Source of the DNA: Tsukamurella paurometabola
GTDB taxonomy: Bacteria; Actinomycetota; Actinomycetes; Mycobacteriales; Mycobacteriaceae
DNA: 64,000 nt
Assembly: GCF_900631615.1 (NCBI RefSeq)
Contig: NZ_LR131273.1
Location: 2,232,001 to 2,296,000, forward strand
Direction: 5' to 3'
The notes under the pieces were generated by a model, which had not been told where the DNA came from, ran no database searches, and worked only from the letters and a program-made list of their open reading frames with translations. Shown here in pieces: positions 7,553 to 44,804 of the stretch. Within the stretch, counting starts at the first letter, position 1. Each line of letters begins with the position of its first letter. Both the position numbers and the translations under genes were made by a program.

Positions 7553-8953
7553 CTACCGGACGAGGTAGGGCGAGATGGTGGAGCGGTGCTCGTCGATGTC
7601 CAGAGCCTTGCCGATCGCGGGGAAGGCGCGCTGGGGGCAGCCGGCGCGCTCACAGACGCGGCAGCCCGCGCCGATGGGGGTGGCGTTGGCGTCCGAGAGG
7701 TCCAGGCCGCGGGCGTAGACGAGCCGGTGGGCGTGCCGCAGCTCGCAGCCGATGCCGATCGCGAAGGTCTTCCCGGGCTGCCCGTACCGCGCCGCCCGCC
7801 GCTCGACGGTGCGCGCGACCCACAGGTAGTTGCGGCCGTCGGGCATCTCCACGATCTGCGTGATGATCTTGCCCGGCCACGCGAAGGTCTCGTAGACGTT
7901 CCACAGCGGGCAGGTGCCGCCGGACGCGGAGAAGTGGAAGCCCGTGGAGCTCTGCCGCTTGCTCATGTTGCCCGCGCGGTCGACGCGGACGAACGAGAGC
8001 GGCACGCCGCGCAGGTTCGGCCGCTGCAGTGTCGACAGCCGGTGCGCGATGGTCTCGTAGCTCACCGAGAAGAACGCCGACAGCCGTTCGATGTCGTACT
8101 CGAACTCCTCCGCCGCGCCGTGGAACTGCGTGTACGGCAGCACGACGGCCGCCGCGTAGTAGTTCGCGAGCCCCAGCCGCGCCAGCCGCCCGGCCTCCTC
8201 CGAGCCGAAGCCGGCACCGTCGACCAGGGCGTCGATCTCCCGGCCGCACTCCAGATAGGCGAGCTCGGCGGCCATCTTGAAGACCTGCTGCCCGGTGGAG
8301 AGGTGCCGGTTGATCTCCAGCACGCGGGTGCGGGGGTCGTAGCGGTGCAGCACCGTCTCCCCGAGGTCGACGCGGCGGCGGATCGACACGTTGTGGACGG
8401 CCTCGAGGCGCGTGACGATCTCGGTGCGGACATCGGCGTTGTGCATGCGCATCCGCGCGGTGAGCTCCTCGGCGGCGACGTCGAGCTCGTGGAAGTAGTT
8501 CTGCCGCTGGTAGAAGAAGTCCCGCACCTCCTCGTGCGGATTGGGGATCGCGCCGCGGGCCCCGGGGTCGTTGCGGCCGTCGGTGACCTGCGCCAGCTGG
8601 TCGGCGGCGCCCAGGTAGCGGCGGTGCAGCGCGACCATGGCGCGGGCGAACCCGGGATGGTCGCGGGCGAGCTCGGACAGCTCGTCGGTGCTGGTCGGCG
8701 CGTCGACGTCCATGGTGACCTCGCGCAGCTCCGCGATCAGCCGCGTCTGGTCCTGGGAGTTGAAGAAGGAGGTGTCGACCCCGAAGACATCGGTGATCTT
8801 CAGCAGCACGGGCACGCTGAGCGGCCGCACGTCGTGCTCGATCTGGTTCAGGTACGACGGCGAGATCTCCAGCGCCTCCGCGAGGGACGCCTGCGACAGC
8901 CCGCGCTCCTTGCGCAGACCGCGGAGTCGTGCCCCCACGAAGGTCTTGGACAT
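7553..8953 (-). CDS. ramB: XRE-family transcriptional regulator of glyoxylate/acetate genes
   Basis: RamB-type regulator of 466 aa. Residues about 8-62 form the helix-turn-helix (LRGLRKERGLSQASLAEALEISPSYLNQIE). An IrrE-like/DUF955 middle part follows, and a C-terminal DUF2083 region ends in a Cys cluster (GCRVCERAGCPQR). RamB controls acetate and glyoxylate genes, notably aceA, in corynebacteria and mycobacteria. Here it is divergent from aceA across a 403-base region, as in Mtb (Rv0465c-icl1). The start is ATG at 8953, giving MSKTFVGARLR; no Shine-Dalgarno precedes it, so the mRNA may be leaderless. Confidence 0.92.
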   Translation of the reverse strand: MSKTFVGARLRGLRKERGLSQASLAEALEISPSYLNQIEHDVRPLSVPVLLKITDVFGVDTSFFNSQDQTRLIAELREVTMDVDAPTSTDELSELARDHPGFARAMVALHRRYLGAADQLAQVTDGRNDPGARGAIPNPHEEVRDFFYQRQNYFHELDVAAEELTARMRMHNADVRTEIVTRLEAVHNVSIRRRVDLGETVLHRYDPRTRVLEINRHLSTGQQVFKMAAELAYLECGREIDALVDGAGFGSEEAGRLARLGLANYYAAAVVLPYTQFHGAAEEFEYDIERLSAFFSVSYETIAHRLSTLQRPNLRGVPLSFVRVDRAGNMSKRQSSTGFHFSASGGTCPLWNVYETFAWPGKIITQIVEMPDGRNYLWVARTVERRAARYGQPGKTFAIGIGCELRHAHRLVYARGLDLSDANATPIGAGCRVCERAGCPQRAFPAIGKALDIDEHRSTISPYLVR

Positions 8954-9356
8954 GGAGCGAAGTTTAGTCGCGGACGCCCAGCTACCGTCGGGTTCCGGCG
9001 GTTCACGCACGGCTTCGCAGTGAGGTGTGTCACACCGGAGCGCCCGTGATGCGCGGCGGGGCGGCGGCGGACCGTCGGGAACGGGCGACGGGGCCCGAAT
9101 GCCGGGGCCCGCAAACTCCCAGTACGGGCGTACTTTTTCCCGCGAGGTTCGCTCTGGACCTTCGCAGGATTAGCAAGATCGGCGTGATTTCATGGCTTGC
9201 TTTGGCATCATCGACCGTCTTGGCCTGCAGCTTTAGGTGTGGCACAGTAGGCGAAGGCGCAACGCCGGGACTGCGAATCGGGTTAGCGATGACCCCTCGC
9301 TCAGCCGCCTGGTGGCCGATCAGATCCACATCGACGCAGAGAAGAACGGGGAGCCA
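8954..9356. promoter_or_regulatory. ramB-aceA divergent control region
   Basis: This 403-base stretch has no credible gene. It should hold both promoters and RamB sites. The only TTTGC core I can point to, on the minus strand at 9111-9115 (AGTTTGCGG), resembles part of the published RamB box but is imperfect. A palindrome AGTACG-GG-CGTACT lies at 9121-9134. A lower-GC stretch at 9160-9250, holding CTTTAGGTG and CACAGT, is the probable aceA promoter zone. The aceA leader would then be over 100 bases long. Confidence 0.5.
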
Positions 9357-10649
9357 ATGAGCACCGTCGGACAGCCGAGGACCGCCGCCGAGATCCAGCA
9401 GGATTGGGACACCAACCCGCGCTGGAAGGGCATCAAGCGTGACTACACCGCCGCCCAGGTCGAGGAGCTTCAGGGCACCGTCGTCGAGGACCACACCCTC
9501 GCGCGCCGTGGCGCCGAGATCCTCTGGGAGGGCGTGACCAAGGGCGACGACAGCTACATCAACGCCCTGGGTGCCCTCACCGGCAACATGGCCGTGCAGC
9601 AGGTGCGCGCCGGCCTCAAGGCCATCTACCTCTCCGGCTGGCAGGTCGCCGGTGACGCGAACCTCTCGGGCCACACCTACCCCGACCAGTCGCTGTACCC
9701 GGCCAACTCGGTCCCGGCCGTCGTGCGTCGCATCAACAACGCGCTGCTCCGCGCCGACGAGATCTCCCGCGTCGAGGGCGACACGTCGGTCGACAACTGG
9801 CTCGTCCCGATCGTCGCGGACGGCGAGGCCGGCTTCGGTGGCGCGCTGAACGTCTACGAGCTGCAGAAGGCCATGATCGCCGCGGGTGCCGCCGGCACCC
9901 ACTGGGAGGATCAGCTCGCCTCGGAGAAGAAGTGCGGCCACCTCGGCGGCAAGGTTCTCATCCCCACCCAGCAGCACATCCGCACGCTGACCTCGGCCCG
10001 TCTGGCCGCGGACGTCGCGAACACCCCCACCGTCGTCATCGCGCGCACCGACGCCGAGGCCGCCACCCTGATCACCTCGGACGTGGACGACCGCGACAAG
10101 CCCTTCGTCACCGGTGAGCGCACCGCCGAGGGCTTCTACAACGTCAAGAACGGCATCGAGCCCTGCATCGCTCGCGCCAAGGCCTACGCCCCGTACGCCG
10201 ACCTCATCTGGATGGAGACCGGCACCCCGGATCTCGAGCTCGCCAAGAAGTTCGCCGAGTCGGTCAAGGCCGAGTTCCCGGACCAGCTCCTGGCCTACAA
10301 CTGCTCGCCGTCCTTCAACTGGAAGCAGCACCTGGACGACGCGACCATCGCGAAGTTCCAGAACGAGCTGGGCGCCATGGGCTTCAAGTTCCAGTTCATC
10401 ACCCTGGCAGGCTTCCACGCCCTCAACTACTCGATGTTCGACCTGGCCTACGGCTACGCCCGTGAGCAGATGAAGGCGTACGTCGAGCTGCAGGAGAAGG
10501 AGTTCGCGTCGGAGGCCCGTGGCTACACCGCCACGAAGCACCAGCGCGAGGTCGGCGCCGGCTACTTCGACCGCATCGCCACCACCGTCGACCCGGAGAG
10601 CTCGACCACCGCGCTCAAGGGCTCGACCGAGGAGGGCCAGTTCCACTAG
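9357..10649 (+). CDS. aceA: isocitrate lyase
   Basis: Splits isocitrate into glyoxylate and succinate, the first step of the glyoxylate bypass needed for growth on acetate and fatty acids; cytosolic homotetramer. The 430-aa length matches short actinobacterial Icl1. The catalytic loop [11 protein letters not shown] is present with the active-site C193. Other landmarks are [42 protein letters not shown] and [11 protein letters not shown] at 9357 is preceded by GGGGAG. It is divergent from ramB and followed by fadB2 with a terminator-like hairpin between them. The fatty-acid context (fadB2) fits its role. Confidence 0.97.
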
Positions 10650-10688
10650 GAACTGGCAGGCCCGCCTCTCCGGGAATCTAGCCGATCG

Positions 10689-10722
10689 CAGGCGGTCCGT
10701 GACTTTCGTCGCGGGCCGCCTG
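10689..10722. terminator. hairpin terminator after aceA
   Basis: Arms CAGGCGGTCCG and CGGGCCGCCTG (one G-T pair) flank a 12-base loop about 40 bases after the aceA stop. It would separate aceA from fadB2 transcription. Confidence 0.6.
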
Positions 10723-10806
10723 TGGCGTAGGTGCGTACGTTCCGGGCGTACCCCTGCAGAGTTACCTCCATCTCGCCTCAGGCGGTTGTTACGTTAGGAA
10801 ATTCTC

Positions 10807-11676
10807 ATGAGTGAAGCTGTATCCAGGGTCGGCGTGGTCGGCGCGGGCCAGATGGGCGGCGGTATCGCCGAGGTGTCCGCCCGTGCGGGTGCCGACGTAC
10901 TGGTCTGGGAGGCCACCGAGGAGCTCGCGGCAGGTGGCCGCGCCCGCATCCTCAAGTCGCTCGATCGTGCCGTGTCCAGCGGCAAGATCACCGAGCGCGA
11001 GCGCGACCAGGCCGCCGAGCGCCTGACCTTCACCACCGACCTCGCCGACTTCGCCGACCGCCAGCTGGTGGTCGAGGCGATCGTCGAGAACGAGGCCGTG
11101 AAGGCGGAGATCTTCGGCAAGCTCGACGAGGTCGTCACCGACCCCGACGCCGTGCTCGCGTCCAACACCTCGTCGCTGCCGATCCAGCGCATCGCCACCG
11201 CCACGAAGAACCCGGGCCGTGTGCTGGGCCTGCACTTCTTCAACCCGGTGCCCGTGCTGCCGCTGGTCGAGGTCATCAGCTCGCTGTCGACGTCGGAGTC
11301 CGCCGCGGCCCGCGCCGAGCAGTTCGCCTCCGAGGTGCTGGGCAAGCAGGTCGTGCGCGCCACCGACCGCTCGGGCTTCATCGTCAACGCGCTGCTGGTC
11401 CCGTACCTGCTGTCCGCGATCCGTATGTACGAGTCGGGCTTCGCGACCGCCGAGGACATCGACAAGGGCATGATGCTCGGCTGCGCGCACCCGATGGGCC
11501 CGCTCAAGCTGGCCGACCTCGTGGGCCTGGACACGGTGAAGTTCATCGCCGACGCGATGTACGCCGAGTACAAGGAGCCCACCTACGCCGCACCGCCGCT
11601 GCTGCTGCGCCTGGTGGAGGCCGGCTACGTCGGCAAGAAGTCGGGCCGCGGGATCTACGAGTACCCCGCGAAGTAG
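10807..11676 (+). CDS. fadB2: 3-hydroxybutyryl-CoA dehydrogenase
   Basis: NAD(P)-dependent 3-hydroxyacyl-CoA dehydrogenase of 289 aa acting in beta-oxidation or butyrate metabolism. The Rossmann motif GVVGAGQMGGGIAEV starts near residue 8. Later come SNTSSLPI, the family signature GLHFFNPVPVLPLVEV with the catalytic His, DRSGFIVNALLVPYL, and GCAHPMGPLKLADLVGLD. ATG at 10807 has AGGAAA ahead of it. The order aceA-fadB2 equals Mtb icl1-fadB2. A copy of GGGCGTAC, also found upstream of aceA, lies about 60 bases before the start. Two hairpins close the gene. Confidence 0.94.
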   Translation: MSEAVSRVGVVGAGQMGGGIAEVSARAGADVLVWEATEELAAGGRARILKSLDRAVSSGKITERERDQAAERLTFTTDLADFADRQLVVEAIVENEAVKAEIFGKLDEVVTDPDAVLASNTSSLPIQRIATATKNPGRVLGLHFFNPVPVLPLVEVISSLSTSESAAARAEQFASEVLGKQVVRATDRSGFIVNALLVPYLLSAIRMYESGFATAEDIDKGMMLGCAHPMGPLKLADLVGLDTVKFIADAMYAEYKEPTYAAPPLLLRLVEAGYVGKKSGRGIYEYPAK

Positions 11677-11730
11677 TTCGCGGGTAGCGAACACTGTTGC
11701 TGAACCGGCAAGGAGACTTGCCGGTTCAGC
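11665..11730. terminator. tandem hairpins at the end of fadB2
   Basis: The first hairpin has 8-bp arms CCCGCGAA/TTCGCGGG and spans the fadB2 stop codon. The second has perfect 14-bp arms GCTGAACCGGCAAG and its complement around a GAGA loop (11699-11730). The second looks like a real terminator or a protein-binding palindrome ahead of the next gene. Confidence 0.65.
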
Positions 11731-11753
11731 TGTTCTCGGCGCACGGTGAGTGC

Positions 11754-12686
11754 ATGAGCGAGAACATCATCGACACCGTCATCATCGGCGGCGGGGCCGC
11801 CGGGCTCACCGCCGCGCAGGTCCTCGGCCGGGCGCGACGTGCGGTCACCGTCGTCGACGCGGGCGCGCCCCGCAACGCCCCGGCCGTGCACATGCACGGC
11901 TACCTCGGGCACGACGGACTGAACCCCGCCGAGCTGCTCGCGATCGGTCGCCGGGAGGCGCAGGCCTACGGCGTGCGCATCCTCCCCGGTGCCGCGACCG
12001 CCGCGCGCCGCGACGGCGACCTCCTCGAGATCACCGTCGGCGACGAGGTGCTGCGCGCCCGAACCCTGCTCGTCGCGACCGGCCTGCGCGACGTACTCCC
12101 CGCGATCGACGGCCTCGCCGAGCGGTTCGGCCGCGACGCCATCCACTGCCCGTTCTGCCACGGCTACGAGGTGCGCGACCGGCCGCTGGCGGTGCTCGGC
12201 GGCGACAACGCCGCGATGTCGGTGCACCAGGCGCTGCTCATCCCGCAGTGGTCCCGCGACCTGGTCTTCTTCACCAACGGCCTCGACGTCCCCGACGCAG
12301 ACCGGGAGCGGATCGAGGCGCGCGGGACGCGCATCGTCGACGGTGCCGTGGCGGGCCTCGTCGTCGAGGGCGACGCGGTGCGCGCCGTCCGGCTCGCCGA
12401 CGGCACCGAGATCGCGCGGGAGGCCGTCTTCGTCGGCCCGCGGTTCGTGCCGCAGGACGAGCTACTGCTGCAACTGGGCGCCGAGCGCGGGGACAACGGC
12501 TTCGTCGCCACCGACCCCATGGGCGGCGTGCTGCCGGGCGTGTGGGCGGCGGGCAACGTCGTGAGCCCGATGGCGCAGGTCATCGTCGCGGCCGGGGCGG
12601 GTTCCAGCGCCGCCGCCGGGATCAGCGCACACCTGCTCGAGCGCGACATCGCGGCGGACCTCGCCCGCGTCGCGCCCGCGATCTGA
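11754..12686 (+). CDS. NAD(P)/FAD-dependent oxidoreductase, thioredoxin-reductase-like
   Basis: Flavoprotein of 310 aa with the two-dinucleotide-fold layout of TrxB: FAD motif VIIGGGAAGLTAAQV near residue 10, redox pair C132-P-F-C135 in IHCPFCHGYEV, NAD(P) region ending in LGGDNAAMSVHQA, and the closing FAD motif GVWAAGNVVSPMAQV. TrxB usually has CATC; CPFCHGYE is typical of the TrxB-like group that includes dithiol oxidases and stand-alone reductases, so the partner is unknown. ATG at 11754. The methyltransferase follows 35 bases later on the same strand, perhaps as an operon. Confidence 0.85.
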   Translation: MSENIIDTVIIGGGAAGLTAAQVLGRARRAVTVVDAGAPRNAPAVHMHGYLGHDGLNPAELLAIGRREAQAYGVRILPGAATAARRDGDLLEITVGDEVLRARTLLVATGLRDVLPAIDGLAERFGRDAIHCPFCHGYEVRDRPLAVLGGDNAAMSVHQALLIPQWSRDLVFFTNGLDVPDADRERIEARGTRIVDGAVAGLVVEGDAVRAVRLADGTEIAREAVFVGPRFVPQDELLLQLGAERGDNGFVATDPMGGVLPGVWAAGNVVSPMAQVIVAAGAGSSAAAGISAHLLERDIAADLARVAPAI

Positions 12687-12721
12687 CCCGGCCCGGAGGG
12701 CGGCGCGCTAGCGTGGGCGCC

Positions 12722-13474
12722 ATGACCAGCGCACTCGACCGGGTGGAGGCCCTGCTCGACCCCGGCCGCCTCGGCCGCGAGCCCGACCGCAGCCACGGCT
12801 ATCTCGACGTGCTCGCCCCCGACAGCGGGAAGCCGGCGGGGCTGAGCAACGCGCTGATGCACAACCCGGCGCTGGCCGCGGTCTACGAGAAGGCGTGGCG
12901 ACCGGCCTTCACCCGGCTGTTCAGCCTGGGCGGCACAGGCACCCTGAGCCGCACCGACGTGCTCCTCGACGAGCTCACCGGCCGCGGCGACCAGAAGCTT
13001 CTCGACGTGGCCTGCGGGCCCGGCCTCTACACGAAGCCGCTCGCCCGCAAGCTCAGCGACGAGGGCGTGGTCGTCGGCCTCGACGTCTCCCCGGCCATGC
13101 TGCAGCGGGCCGTCCGCGACAACGCCGACGACCGCGTCGCCTACGTGCGCGGCAGCGCCCTCGAGCTGCCCTTCCCGGACGATACGTTCGACACGGTGGT
13201 CTGCCTCGCGGCGCTGTACCTGATCCCGGCGCCGCGGATCGCCGTCCGCGAGATCTGCCGCGTCGCCGAGCCCGGCGGCCGCGTCGCGCTGTTCACCTCG
13301 CTGCAGACGCCGCTGACCTCGGTCCTGGGCTCGTCGACGGCGGAGCGGGTCTCCGGGTTCCGCTGGTTCGGCAAGGACGAGATCACCGGTTGGCTGCGCG
13401 AGTACGGCCTCGTCGACGTGCAGCAGACCGTCAGCGGGCAGGGGCAGTTCGTGACGGCCCGTAAACCGCGGTGA
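12722..13474 (+). CDS. class I SAM-dependent methyltransferase
   Basis: Protein of 250 aa. The SAM-binding motif LLDVACGPGLYTKPLA is near residue 90, motif II is LDVSPAMLQRA, and the post-I strand acidic residue is in LELPFPDDTFDTVVCLAALYLIP. The first 60 residues, with GLSNALMHNPALAAVYE, form a helical cap seen in UbiE/COQ5-like methyltransferases. The substrate is not recognisable; lipid or quinone methylation is possible. ATG at 12722. It lies directly after the TrxB-like gene and converges on the LysR regulator with 30 bases between. Confidence 0.82.
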   Translation: MTSALDRVEALLDPGRLGREPDRSHGYLDVLAPDSGKPAGLSNALMHNPALAAVYEKAWRPAFTRLFSLGGTGTLSRTDVLLDELTGRGDQKLLDVACGPGLYTKPLARKLSDEGVVVGLDVSPAMLQRAVRDNADDRVAYVRGSALELPFPDDTFDTVVCLAALYLIPAPRIAVREICRVAEPGGRVALFTSLQTPLTSVLGSSTAERVSGFRWFGKDEITGWLREYGLVDVQQTVSGQGQFVTARKPR

Positions 13475-40712: not shown

Positions 40713-40787
40713 TGGAGCCCCCTGTCGGGATTGAACCGACGACCTTCGCTTTACAAGAGCGGTGCTCTACCACTGAGCTAAGGAGGC
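40713..40787 (-). tRNA. tRNA-Thr (anticodon UGU)
   Basis: Reading the minus strand from 40787: the 7-bp acceptor GCCTCCT pairs with AGGGGGC (one G-U pair); D-arm TAGCTCAGTGGTAGAGCA; anticodon arm CGCT-CTTGTAA-AGCG with anticodon TGT; T-arm GTCGG-TTCAATC-CCGAC. CCA is encoded at the 3' end after a U discriminator (40713-40716). The fold is complete, so the gene should be functional. It flanks the accessory segment. Confidence 0.93.
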
Positions 40788-40827
40788 GCGGACCGCACGG
40801 TCGCCGCGCCAGCATATCGTGACCAGC

Positions 40828-41706
40828 ATGACTGATTCCTTCGAGACCATCAGCTGGACGCTCGACGACGACGGCATCGCCACGCTCGTGCTCGACCGCC
40901 CGGATCAGCTCAACGCGTTCAGTGTGACGATGGCGCGCGAGCTGACGGAGTTCTTCGAGGTGCACGCGCGGCGCGACGAGGTGCGCGCGGTCGTCGTCAC
41001 CGGCGCGGGCCGTGCCTTCTGCGCGGGTATGGATCTCACCGGCGAGGGCAACGTCTTCGGCCTCGACGAGTCCGTGCGTCCGACGCCCGAGGAGTTCGCG
41101 GCGCACTACGACGAGGCGCCGTACCAGGACGGTGTGCGCGACACCGGCGGCAAGCTCACGCTCGCGATCTACTCGCTGCCCAAGCCGGTGATCGCCGCGA
41201 TCAACGGCCCCGCGGTGGGCATCGGCGCGACGATGACCCTCGCGATGGACACGCGGCTCGCGTCGACGAAGGCCCGCATCGGCTTCGTCTTCGGCAGGCT
41301 CGGCATCGTCATGGAGGCGTGCTCGAGCTGGTTCCTGCCGCGGATCGTCGGTCCCGCGCAGGCGCTGGAGTGGGTCTACTCCGCCGACATCCTCACCGCC
41401 GAGCAGGCCCGCGAGGGTCGCCTCGTCCGCAGCCTGCACGAGCCCGACGAGCTGGTCCCCGCCGCGCAGGAACTCGCCCGCTCCTGGGTGAAGGGCCGCT
41501 CGGCCGCCGCCACCGGAGTCATGAAGCAGCTCGTCTACGGCGGCCTCGGTGCGGCGAAGCCCCTGGACCAGCACCTCGCCGACTCGCTCGGCATGTACTA
41601 CACCTCGATCGGCGACGGCAAGGAGGGCGTGGCCGCCTTCCTCGAGAAGCGCGCCCCCGAATTCACCAGCAAGGCCTCCGAGATCCCGCGCATCGTCCCG
41701 GAGTAG
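40828..41706 (+). CDS. enoyl-CoA hydratase/isomerase family protein
   Basis: Crotonase-fold protein of 292 aa. The oxyanion-hole stretch is AFCAGMDLTGEG; the second glycine stretch is AAINGPAVGIGATMTLAMDTRLAS; the catalytic position corresponds to RLGIVMEACSSWFLPRIVG, with Glu present. The crotonase insert DGVRDTGGKLTLAIY is longer than usual. Acts on a CoA thioester, likely in fatty-acid breakdown. I chose ATG at 40828 because TATCGT lies 7 bases ahead (leaderless); GTG at 40819 is an alternative. Divergent from the tRNA gene. Confidence 0.9.
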   Translation: MTDSFETISWTLDDDGIATLVLDRPDQLNAFSVTMARELTEFFEVHARRDEVRAVVVTGAGRAFCAGMDLTGEGNVFGLDESVRPTPEEFAAHYDEAPYQDGVRDTGGKLTLAIYSLPKPVIAAINGPAVGIGATMTLAMDTRLASTKARIGFVFGRLGIVMEACSSWFLPRIVGPAQALEWVYSADILTAEQAREGRLVRSLHEPDELVPAAQELARSWVKGRSAAATGVMKQLVYGGLGAAKPLDQHLADSLGMYYTSIGDGKEGVAAFLEKRAPEFTSKASEIPRIVPE

Positions 41707-41844
41707 CCACCGCGGGTTAGCGTCCGCAGCCCGAAGTGCGGCGTCTAGAAGGCACTCCGTACCCCTCTGAGGCGCGGCGCAGCCATCGGTGTGGGTGAAT
41801 ACGTGAAGTCGGACACGCGGAACCCTGTTGGGTGACACAATCGG

Positions 41845-44250
41845 GTGGTGGGCGAGTCAGATAATACGTCGGTCTTCTTTGCTTACGCGTCGTATCCGGC
41901 ATCCTGTGGTGAGGCAATGTCTACAGCTGCGGCGGATTTGCGCGATCAAGGTGTTGCAGCGCGAACCTGGCAAGACATGAATCCGAGCGGACGGATCCTC
42001 ATCGACGCAATCACAGACGAGATCGATCGCGCCGACGTCGTCGTGGCCGAAATCAGCACAATGAACAAGAATGTGTTGTTCGAGGCAGGGTATGCGCTGG
42101 CGCGAAATAAGACACTGTTGTTTGCTTTGGATGAGTCTCTGGAGAGTGCGCGACGACTGTGGGAAGGCGTCCAGTTATTCGCCACAATCGGCAGGTTGGA
42201 TTACCATGGTAATGGTCACGAACTAGCGAACCGTATTCAAGGTGCTATTATTGCAGGTGGTGAAGGTTCGCTTCTTTCGAGTATTCTTTCAGATCGTCGG
42301 CAACAACAGCTCAATGCTGTGTTCGCCCCGACTGTTCCGGTCAAGTTTCAAGCTGCCGAAATGCTGGATAAGGAGCTTGGAAACCGTGGGAGTATCCAGG
42401 TTCTTGCTAGCGGCGACGACCTAGGGCTGGCGCCCCTCTCTTACTACGCGTGTGAGATAGTGCGATCGGCGGCGGCGATATTTCACTTGATGAACCCCGG
42501 CAGGACGCGAGGAGTCGAGCATAATGCTCGATCAAGTTTTCTTGCGGGATTTGCGCGGGGTTGGGAAACGCCTGTGTTAATGGTTGCTGAATCGGAGTAC
42601 GAAAGTCCTCTCGACTACCGAGATCTCCTCTTTAATTATTCGACTGCGGCTCAAATGGTCCGACATGTTGATGATTGGCTGGAGAGCATACCTCTGAAAC
42701 AGGGAAGTAGTCGTCGCCTGGGGCGATTGACAATGGACTTGGAATTGCCCGTTAGCTCGTTTGGTCAATACGTGGCGGAAAACGAGGAGTTTTCGCGGCT
42801 TGAAGAGTATTTTTTGCCAACGAGCGAGTTCGGCAGCCTGTTGCGGGGATCGGAAACAGTCTTCATTGGGAGGAAAGGGACTGGAAAAACAGCCACGATG
42901 CTGCAGGCTGCAGCTGAATTGGAAAAAGACCGACGGAATCTGGTGGTGCGGGTCAAGCCGACATCCTATGAGCTTGCTGGGTTGGTTGATCTGGTTAGTC
43001 GATTCGAGTTGCGCTCGGGGAGTGAATACCTTCTCAATAACCTATGGAACTTTCTCTTGTCGACTGAGGTCGCGTGTCATCTGCTCGCATCTGCAGACGC
43101 AAGTGGCGCAGGAGTGGGTGGATCGCCGGAGTTGTTGGCGATCGATCGCAGACTTGCGGCGATGAGAGTAGACGCCACGGCTGACTTAGCTACGCGGCTG
43201 GAAGAAGCGATATCCAGGATTCAAACCGAATCTGCATCGACGTGTGATGATCGAGAGCTTCGAGAAGTCGTCGGTAGCGCCCTCGGCGTGCACTCATTCA
43301 AAGAGTTTCACCACGAACTCAGGAAAGCGGCATTCAGTGCGCATAATCGGATTGCTATCCTCGTTGATAATCTTGACAAGACGTGGGAGAGCGACACTGA
43401 TTTCGAAGTTACTTCCAGGTTCCTGCTAGCGCTATTAGGGGCGGCAGGACAATTTCGAAAGGCGCTTCTAAGGGGGATGGACGGGAGAACTGTAACGCTG
43501 GGAATATTCATTCGATCGGACATTTTCGAAGTAATGACTTCTTACGCGAGGGAGCCAGACAAGATCGGTCCACTTGCGGTCCATTGGGATGACCCTTATC
43601 TCCTTGCACGAGTGCTCGAGGAGCGATACTCGACTAATCGAAGGCGTAAGAATCCTCGAGATGATGACATGTGGGCTACCATATTCCCAGATGAGGTGAG
43701 CGGGTTACCCGCTAAGGACTACATTCTATGGAGGATACTGCCGCGTCCGCGTGACATTATCTACTTCGGTAACGCTGCCCTCACTACCGCAATAAATCGG
43801 AGGCACGCAGTTATTACTCAAGATGATATAGCGATGGCCGACGAAACCTATTCAAGGTTTGCGTATGACGCCCTTGTGGTTGAGAGCGGATCGCAAGGCT
43901 TCAGTCTCGAGGATGTTCTATACGAATTTGCGGGGCTCAATTCAATTCTCACCGAAGAGGAATTGGGTCAGGTCTTGGGGAGCATCGATTACGATCCGTT
44001 GGAGATTAGATCGTGGCTACTGAGGACGTCATTCCTTGGTATTGAGGTCCGAGAGGGCAAGTTTGCTCATGTGGAGGGGAAGTCTGAAGTTGATCGCAAG
44101 CTGAAGGTTGCATCACGTTCCTCAGAGCGCTCCTCGCGTCCGATACATTTTAGAGTTCATCCCGCATTTCGGCACTACTTGGATATTCGTGATGACGACT
44201 TGCATGCCTCGGGGTTGGAAGACGTAACACTGAAGTTTGATTCCGAGTAG
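41845..44250 (+). CDS. TIR-like domain fused to a P-loop ATPase (putative defence protein)
   Basis: A single 801-aa protein. Residues about 8-110 look like the TIR-like/nucleoside-hydrolase fold: FFAYASYPASC, DAITDEIDRADVVVAEISTM, then NKNVLFEAGYALARNKTLLF with Glu80 at the usual catalytic position. A second, variable alpha/beta part follows (about 150-300). From 320 on comes an ATPase resembling the Sll1717 group: Walker A GRKGTGKT at 342-349, Walker B IAILVDNLDKTWE around D508, and a long helical C-terminus. G+C is about 50 % against 70 % around it, so it was acquired recently. GTG at 41845 or 41848; CACAAT lies 6 bases before the second. An NAD-depleting phage-sensing role is inferred. Confidence 0.8.
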   Translation: MVGESDNTSVFFAYASYPASCGEAMSTAAADLRDQGVAARTWQDMNPSGRILIDAITDEIDRADVVVAEISTMNKNVLFEAGYALARNKTLLFALDESLESARRLWEGVQLFATIGRLDYHGNGHELANRIQGAIIAGGEGSLLSSILSDRRQQQLNAVFAPTVPVKFQAAEMLDKELGNRGSIQVLASGDDLGLAPLSYYACEIVRSAAAIFHLMNPGRTRGVEHNARSSFLAGFARGWETPVLMVAESEYESPLDYRDLLFNYSTAAQMVRHVDDWLESIPLKQGSSRRLGRLTMDLELPVSSFGQYVAENEEFSRLEEYFLPTSEFGSLLRGSETVFIGRKGTGKTATMLQAAAELEKDRRNLVVRVKPTSYELAGLVDLVSRFELRSGSEYLLNNLWNFLLSTEVACHLLASADASGAGVGGSPELLAIDRRLAAMRVDATADLATRLEEAISRIQTESASTCDDRELREVVGSALGVHSFKEFHHELRKAAFSAHNRIAILVDNLDKTWESDTDFEVTSRFLLALLGAAGQFRKALLRGMDGRTVTLGIFIRSDIFEVMTSYAREPDKIGPLAVHWDDPYLLARVLEERYSTNRRRKNPRDDDMWATIFPDEVSGLPAKDYILWRILPRPRDIIYFGNAALTTAINRRHAVITQDDIAMADETYSRFAYDALVVESGSQGFSLEDVLYEFAGLNSILTEEELGQVLGSIDYDPLEIRSWLLRTSFLGIEVREGKFAHVEGKSEVDRKLKVASRSSERSSRPIHFRVHPAFRHYLDIRDDDLHASGLEDVTLKFDSE

Positions 44251-44315
44251 CTGGATCTTCTGCGAGTCTTCGCACCAAGTGAACCAGTGATTTGTTGAGA
44301 GCCTACTATTGCCCC

Positions 44316-44804
44316 ATGGAGATCCGCGACGCCCAGCCGGCCGACCTTCCGGCCATCCTCGCCATCCACAACGATGCCGTGGAGAACTCGACCGCCATCT
44401 GGTCCGAGGAGAAGGCGGACCTCGCCGAGCGCGAGGCCTGGCTCGCCGAGCGCCGCGCCGGGGGCTTCCCCGTCCTCGTCGCCATCGTCGACGGTGAGCT
44501 CGGCGGGTACGCCTCGTACGGGCCGTTCCGCAGCAAGTCGGGCTACAAGCACACCGTCGAGAACTCGGTGTACGTGGCGGACGGCTTCTACCGCCGCGGC
44601 ATCGCCGAGGCGCTGATGAACGCGCTCATCGAGCGCGCGCAGGAGTCCGACGTGCACGTGGTGGTCGCCGCCATCGAGGAGTCCAACCACGCCTCGGTCG
44701 CGCTGCACCGCAAGCTCGGCTTCCGCGTGACCGGCCAGATGCCGCAGGTCGGCATCAAGTTCGGTCGCTGGCTGGATCTGGTGCTGATGCAGCGGATCCT
44801 CTAG
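44316..44804 (+). CDS. GNAT N-acetyltransferase, phosphinothricin acetyltransferase-like
   Basis: Acetyl-CoA-dependent transferase of 162 aa. The PAT/bar-type start EIRDAQPADLPAILAIHNDAVENSTAIW, the FRSKSGYKHTVENSVYV block and the acetyl-CoA loop YRRGIAEALMNALI are clear, as is the end GFRVTGQMPQVGIKFGRWLDLVLMQ. Close relatives acetylate phosphinothricin, methionine sulfone or similar amino acids; resistance cannot be claimed from sequence alone. ATG at 44316. Its 3' end overlaps the convergent membrane-protein gene by 50 bases. Confidence 0.9.
   Translation: MEIRDAQPADLPAILAIHNDAVENSTAIWSEEKADLAEREAWLAERRAGGFPVLVAIVDGELGGYASYGPFRSKSGYKHTVENSVYVADGFYRRGIAEALMNALIERAQESDVHVVVAAIEESNHASVALHRKLGFRVTGQMPQVGIKFGRWLDLVLMQRIL

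Follow-up and report, generated by a model that had tools for sequence, protein, structure and literature searches.

A foreign gene of Tsukamurella paurometabola joins a TIR/NDT-like domain to a Sll1717-family ATPase and may encode a single-gene anti-phage protein

The window, that is, the whole 64-kb stretch of Tsukamurella paurometabola DNA that was analysed, carries on its plus strand an intact open reading frame (41845-44250) that begins with GTG, contains no internal stops and encodes a protein of 801 amino acids. It is preceded by an enoyl-CoA hydratase/isomerase (ECH) gene (40819-41706, plus strand; PF00378, E 3.7e-43) and followed by a GNAT acetyltransferase gene (44316-44804, plus strand, ATG at 44316; PF00583, E 1.7e-18), as identified in a Pfam search that covered the window gene and its two neighbours. 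Both flanking genes are kept in all 16 genus genomes, and in the other 15 they neighbour each other. The GC content of the window gene is 52.3%, compared with a mean of 71.9% and a minimum of 67.1% in 1136 overlapping windows of gene size taken outside the gene within the 64 kb. No integrase or transposase was recognised by eye among the ORF translations between 36 and 50 kb. An earlier sequence-only reading had described a gene AT-richer than its neighbours by about 20 points, flanked by two ordinary core genes and lacking an integrase, and these points were borne out.

When the locus was compared by blastn with the 15 sister loci of the genus, homology to all 15 stopped at 41696-41712, at the ECH stop codon, and restarted at 44301-44316, at the GNAT start. 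The window gene is therefore carried by a cleanly bounded insert of roughly 2.6 kb, approximately 41713-44308, within which no homology to the sister loci was detected at E 1e-5. A tRNA-Thr gene (40713-40787) lies beyond the ECH gene, on the side far from the insert, and does not touch it. Horizontal acquisition is the best explanation for the presence of the gene. The ECH-GNAT junction itself (41707-44315 in the window; L042-L056 in the sisters) is variable in the genus. The sister gaps measure 7-85 bp in six of the 15 loci and 475-1888 bp, at native GC, in the other nine, where the ORFs recognised by eye from their translations are glyoxalase-, permease- and class V aminotransferase-like. 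Since the gene stands alone and the sister loci are near-empty or metabolic-looking, the locus is not a defence island. The junction was also considered as a defence hotspot, and this idea was dropped because of the same tiny or metabolic-looking gaps.

A scan of genome contigs, limited in its reach to close relatives, turned up a single one, a copy in a Nocardioides MAG (L002) that is about 72-73% identical up to residue 544 and is then cut short. Over 521 codons, the identity between this copy and the window gene is 77, 86 and 36% at codon positions 1, 2 and 3 respectively; dN is 0.21 and dS is too saturated to compute. The codons of the window gene are under protein-level constraint, and the gene is real, intact and foreign.

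The distribution of the gene is sporadic. In overlapping samples of increasing taxonomic depth, it was found in one of 16 genus genomes and two of 301 family genomes, the genome under study being counted in each. Eleven of 397 genomes in the order sample matched at E <= 0.001, five of them (own included) nearly full-length, and four of 396 matched in the phylum sample, where the matches other than its own comprise the ATPase part only, one at a contig edge. Among plasmids, 16 records matched and 13 covered at least 80% of the query; these 13 come from Rhodococcus, Leptolyngbya (four records, one species), Leptospira, Paraburkholderia, Mesorhizobium, Ochrobactrum, Rhizobium and Ensifer (three records, one species). 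Four scans of viral contigs, the first of them empty, together yielded six distinct relatives with open full-length frames, and no match turned up among 50,697 phage records. The three-part architecture thus recurs widely, in the window's order, a cyanobacterium, Leptospira, proteobacteria and the six viral contigs. In all 12 loci that were fetched, the GC content of the gene is lower than that of its locus.

Seventeen intact full-length proteins, including that of the window, were used for the main alignment, and an 18-row version adds L009, whose tblastn match spans 787 codons with a single stop, its natural end, at codon 784. Copies with truncation or in-frame stops (L002, L017, L023 and L025), a copy at a contig edge (L004), duplicate records, ATPase-only matches and very short matches were left out. 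In a midpoint-rooted tree, the 17 proteins fall into two fully supported groups. The first holds the window protein, four genomes of the window's order, the cyanobacterium, Leptospira and one viral contig; the second holds the proteobacteria and the other five viral contigs. In-frame stops or truncation affect these four relatives (L002, L017, L023 and L025), against 18 intact full-length proteins. Loss this frequent would fit a costly accessory gene, and sequencing errors are also possible.

The N-terminal domain of the protein (D1, residues about 8-140; 41866-42264) is predicted to be catalytic. The sequence-only reading had called it nucleotide-hydrolase/TIR-like on the motif NKNVLFEAGYA with Glu80 (codon 42082-42084), and profile searches now mark it as TIR/NDT-like (NDT, nucleoside deoxyribosyltransferase). 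The Pfam family with the most member matches in D1 is nucleoside 2-deoxyribosyltransferase (Nuc_deoxyrib_tr, PF05014), found in 15 of the 17 proteins at E <= 0.05 (best 1.5e-6). The PADLOC TIR effector model matched 14 of 17 (best 6.3e-6), the CAP12 TIR model (PF10137) two of 17 (best 0.001) and TIR_2 (PF13676) one of 17. The window protein alone scored 21.0 bits with PF05014, under the gathering cut-off of 28.8, and 16.9 bits with TIR_2, under the cut-off of 28; PF10137 gave no match in the window protein itself. Seven residues of D1 are invariant in all 18 intact full-length proteins, namely Y14, W42, G49, N76, E80, A84 and G116. TIR, DrHyd and SLOG domains are grouped together in a Rossmannoid class whose members either cleave nucleotides or bind them (PMC9503650). 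From these profiles, D1 most likely belongs to the TIR/DrHyd/SLOG class, assigned to neither TIR nor NDT specifically.

Against solved structures, the D1 profile matched DNPH1/Rcl best (E 4.4e-6), followed by a CMP N-glycosidase (0.0072), with weaker matches to an NDT (0.086) and to the TIR domain of TLR2 (0.087). The best solved match of D1 is thus a nucleotide hydrolase and not a TIR protein. Glu80 is aligned with the glutamate of VGYELGRA in DNPH1, which we take to be the catalytic nucleophile of that enzyme. Phmmer with the whole window protein returned weak matches, to Lon (E >= 0.46) and DNPH1 (E 0.57). The order of the structural matches, together with the predominance of Nuc_deoxyrib_tr among the members, would fit a reading in which D1 is a DNPH1-like N-hydrolase of deoxynucleoside monophosphates or modified nucleotides, and defence would then proceed by depriving the replicating phage of nucleotides, not by loss of NAD+. 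This reading is considered unlikely, though it is the strongest of the rivals: the structural match spans a 45-residue core of D1, and related DrHyd domains of conflict systems are reported to be NADases or ADP-ribosyl cyclases (PMC9503650).

The middle domain (D2, residues about 156-285; 42310-42699) had been described as a segment of about residues 150-300 that matched nothing and could be the phage sensor. It more likely represents a degenerate TIR/NDT-like domain. D2 has the pattern HN-x-R ... F-x-AG-x-A-x-G ... P-x-L, which mirrors N-x-NV-x-FE-x-GYA-x-G-x-x-K of D1 with the glutamate replaced; N227, G235 and D257 are invariant in 18 of 18 proteins and P255 is nearly so. When D1 and D2 were compared by hhalign, the score was 26.1 over 29 columns at a probability of 28%, which fell to 15% with slightly shifted boundaries. 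Column shuffling of D2, repeated 200 times, gave a mean of 11.4 and a maximum of 19.3, always short of 26.1; reversed D2 scored 16.6, and ten slices of the ATPase scored 19.5 or less. Because the score lies beyond all 200 shuffles, D2 is probably a second copy of the TIR/NDT-like domain. D2 alone, searched against PDB sequences up to E 5, gave one chance-level match (E 0.85) and no credible structure.

The C-terminal part (residues 306-779; 42760-44181) is a P-loop ATPase of the Sll1717 family. It matched NF047389 with 254.2 bits against a cut-off of 75 (E 2.7e-75) over the entire profile (1-454 of 454), and the same model matched all 17 aligned members. Walker A is GRKGTGKT (residues 342-349; 42868-42891) and Walker B is VDNLDK (residues 507-512; 43363-43380), in which D508, N509 and D511 are invariant. 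The Walker A and B residues are invariant in the alignment, and the protein is predicted to hydrolyse ATP. The 801-residue length, NKNVLFEAGYA with Glu80, GRKGTGKT and VDNLDKTWE (507-515) had all been recorded in the sequence-only reading and were found as written, and its P-loop ATPase is confirmed by the family model. The window protein also showed a weak ORC-CDC6-like Pfam match (E 3.8e-4, below cut-off), shared by eight of the 17 members, and a weak match to nSTAND5 (16.8 against 34 bits), with no TPR family in its Pfam list. These weak profile matches suggest an AAA/ORC-CDC6/STAND-like ATPase. The PHROG family phrog_13260, of unknown function, matched residues 306-673 (E 5.6e-19). At the level of the whole protein, the PADLOC candidate-defence model PDC-M28C matched 10 of 17 members (best 5.9e-8).

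The ATPase module also occurs without D1 and D2. Four proteins from the window's order (L011-L014, minus strand) have another N-terminus in front of it, of about 110 residues in three and up to 217 in one, where the start is uncertain. In a Pantoea plasmid protein (L027:7962-10073) the ATPase comes first, with an extension of some 220 residues on its C-terminal side, and in Nostoc the module stands nearly alone. Reuse of the module with other partners fits a switch with exchangeable effectors.

Some further features of these ATPase-bearing proteins were noted. L011-L014 have a short tail, and their only matches were to nSTAND1, below the cut-off. The Pantoea extension appears nuclease-like by eye, and no Pfam match was found there at E <= 0.01. 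Two plasmid scans gave 211 and 220 matching records, of which 198 and 207, respectively, covered less than 80% of the query; 60 records were listed for each scan, mostly from Klebsiella, Escherichia, Enterobacter and Citrobacter. Among the matches listed, those on enterobacterial plasmids are confined to the ATPase (about residues 294-771) and are mostly annotated as ATP-binding or hypothetical protein.

Mechanical ORF calling around 12 relatives gave two sets of 66 and 62 ORFs, 128 in all, which were searched with PADLOC (E <= 1e-10). Among the matches listed, which for the second set are 25 of 48 families, were type IV restriction enzyme (two ORFs), ThsB (two) and type II methyltransferases (two). 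Single ORFs resembled a defence reverse transcriptase, QueC, TGT and RecD helicases; of all these, the methyltransferase, RecD-like, QueC and TGT matches lack specificity for defence. When neighbouring ORFs of relatives were scanned singly, a PADLOC match at 1e-5 was obtained for two of 10 and none for eight. At L031, a type IV restriction enzyme (2.5e-277) adjoins the family gene. At L041, an 82.7-kb viral contig, ThsB (2.2e-40) lies beside a TPR-S protein (1.8e-20), and the family member, TPR-S and ThsB are consecutive on one strand (7968-13230). The Rhodococcus plasmid copy, which has an in-frame stop, is flanked by an annotated TIR protein on one side and a DUF4062 protein (5.9e-10) on the other. 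Thus the check proposed with the sequence-only reading, that homologues be examined for adjoining defence genes, showed that some relatives have Thoeris genes, a type IV restriction gene or DUF4062/TIR genes next to them. The counts were made without control regions, and these neighbours are taken as support, not as enrichment.

The plasmid stretches of Leptospira, Paraburkholderia, Mesorhizobium and Ensifer carry annotated toxin-antitoxin and transposase or recombinase genes, and that of Leptolyngbya carries a relaxase and a conjugative-transfer gene. The occurrence of relatives on plasmids and viral contigs, together with the weak ORC-CDC6-like match, would fit an ATP-dependent DNA-maintenance or plasmid-addiction protein, with an ORC-CDC6-like ATPase and a nucleotide-binding N-terminus, that is spread on mobile elements and has no part in phage defence. 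This is less probable again than the nucleotide-hydrolase reading. The window copy stands by itself on the chromosome, an invariant glutamate of catalytic type is not obviously required for DNA maintenance, and some relatives adjoin defence genes.

No model in Pfam, PADLOC, NCBIfam or PHROG names the window protein as a whole. The sequence-only reading did not recognise the combination as a named one; this stands for the whole fusion, whereas the ATPase half does have a name, the Sll1717 family of NCBIfam. That family model describes the same ATPase over its whole length and lacks the TIR/NDT-like pair of the window protein, and phrog_13260 is likewise similar in the ATPase, with the TIR/NDT part outside the match. 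In a comparison with PADLOC, proposed at the same time, members had the TIR effector matches described above; the window protein had just two matches, both weak (E 0.016 and 0.034), and no identifying model. DS-41 (NF053860, DS41_1) has a distantly related ATPase: 16 of 17 members matched (best 7.5e-14), but the window protein scored 31.7 bits, far under the equivalog cut-off of 370. The DS41_1 model was linked by name to DS-41 of the DefensePredictor study, which is listed among the experimentally validated systems (PMC13092281).

DUF4062 TIR-like NADases are reported to defend through NAD+ depletion, with an auxiliary sensor in the same protein (PMC13174449). One of these, Swarozyc, resembles the window protein in having a TIR-like domain with one catalytic glutamate joined to an auxiliary part (PMC13174449). 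The auxiliary part differs, however, and PF13271 is absent from the Pfam matches of the window protein at E <= 1. Thoeris ThsB and TIR effectors share the TIR-like class, and ThsB lies near the relative L041, whereas the window system is one protein flanked by ECH and GNAT genes, with no adjoining ThsA; neither ThsA nor ThsB was among the PADLOC matches of the window protein. DNPH1/Rcl and NDTs resemble D1, including the glutamate, but the matched solved proteins are 145-176 amino acids long and have no ATPase. The window protein has the glutamate at the catalytic position of the PF05014 family but misses its gathering cut-off. The CAP12/Pycsar TIR effector is similar to D1 in two of 17 relatives, and the window gene has ECH and GNAT instead of an adjoining cyclase. 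With regard to Avs/STAND proteins, which combine a STAND NTPase with a TPR-like sensor at the C-terminus, the window protein showed the weak nSTAND5 match and no TPR family in its Pfam list. Among the titles and abstract openings listed, mostly from outside the subscription journals, no description of a TIR/NDT-Sll1717 fusion was found. The fusion design is recurring but apparently uncharacterised.

The reading favoured here, which we consider probable, is that the gene was acquired horizontally and by itself encodes an anti-phage protein that works by abortive infection, in which the ATPase switches on a TIR/NDT-like glycohydrolase. An NTPase switch combined with such a glycohydrolase is the anatomy of infection-triggered depletion of NAD+ or nucleotides. 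The Sll1717-family ATPase, with ATP bound, would serve as the switch: on sensing an infection cue it would oligomerise and bring the N-terminal TIR/NDT-like domains together. The Glu80 site would then cleave an N-glycosidic bond, most likely that of NAD+ and possibly that of another nucleotide, and growth would stop before phage release. The Glu-less D2 would probably restrain the active copy, pair with D1 or bind a nucleotide. Counting against this reading are the ordinary neighbours of the window gene, the scores of its D1 below the Pfam cut-offs, the single TIR_2 match among 17 proteins, the weak PADLOC matches of the window protein, the eight of 10 neighbouring ORFs without a PADLOC match, a nucleotide hydrolase as the best solved match of D1, the low hhalign probability for D1 and D2, the lack of a match among the 50,697 phage records and the in-frame stop of the Rhodococcus copy.

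The least probable of the readings considered is a signalling enzyme, in which an ADP-ribose-type signal, cyclic or linear, would be produced by D1 and read by D2 or by an unlinked effector. In its favour, cyclic ADP-ribose species are among the products that TIR and DrHyd domains can form (PMC9503650), and the Glu-less D2 could bind a nucleotide; against it, no common partner gene is apparent by eye in the annotated plasmid stretches.

The anti-phage reading may be extended, more tentatively and with somewhat less than even confidence, to an unnamed and widespread one-protein immune system. Its tandem TIR/NDT-like domains would comprise one catalytic copy and one Glu-less copy acting as inhibitor or nucleotide sensor, and the Sll1717 ATPase would be an interchangeable infection sensor that is fused elsewhere to different effectors. 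If the anti-phage reading is true, a compact one-gene system would be added to the TIR-class NADase and nucleotidase defences, and the little-described Sll1717 ATPase family would be tied to the control of effectors. The Glu-less D2 also lends itself to the question of which role pseudo-TIR domains play.
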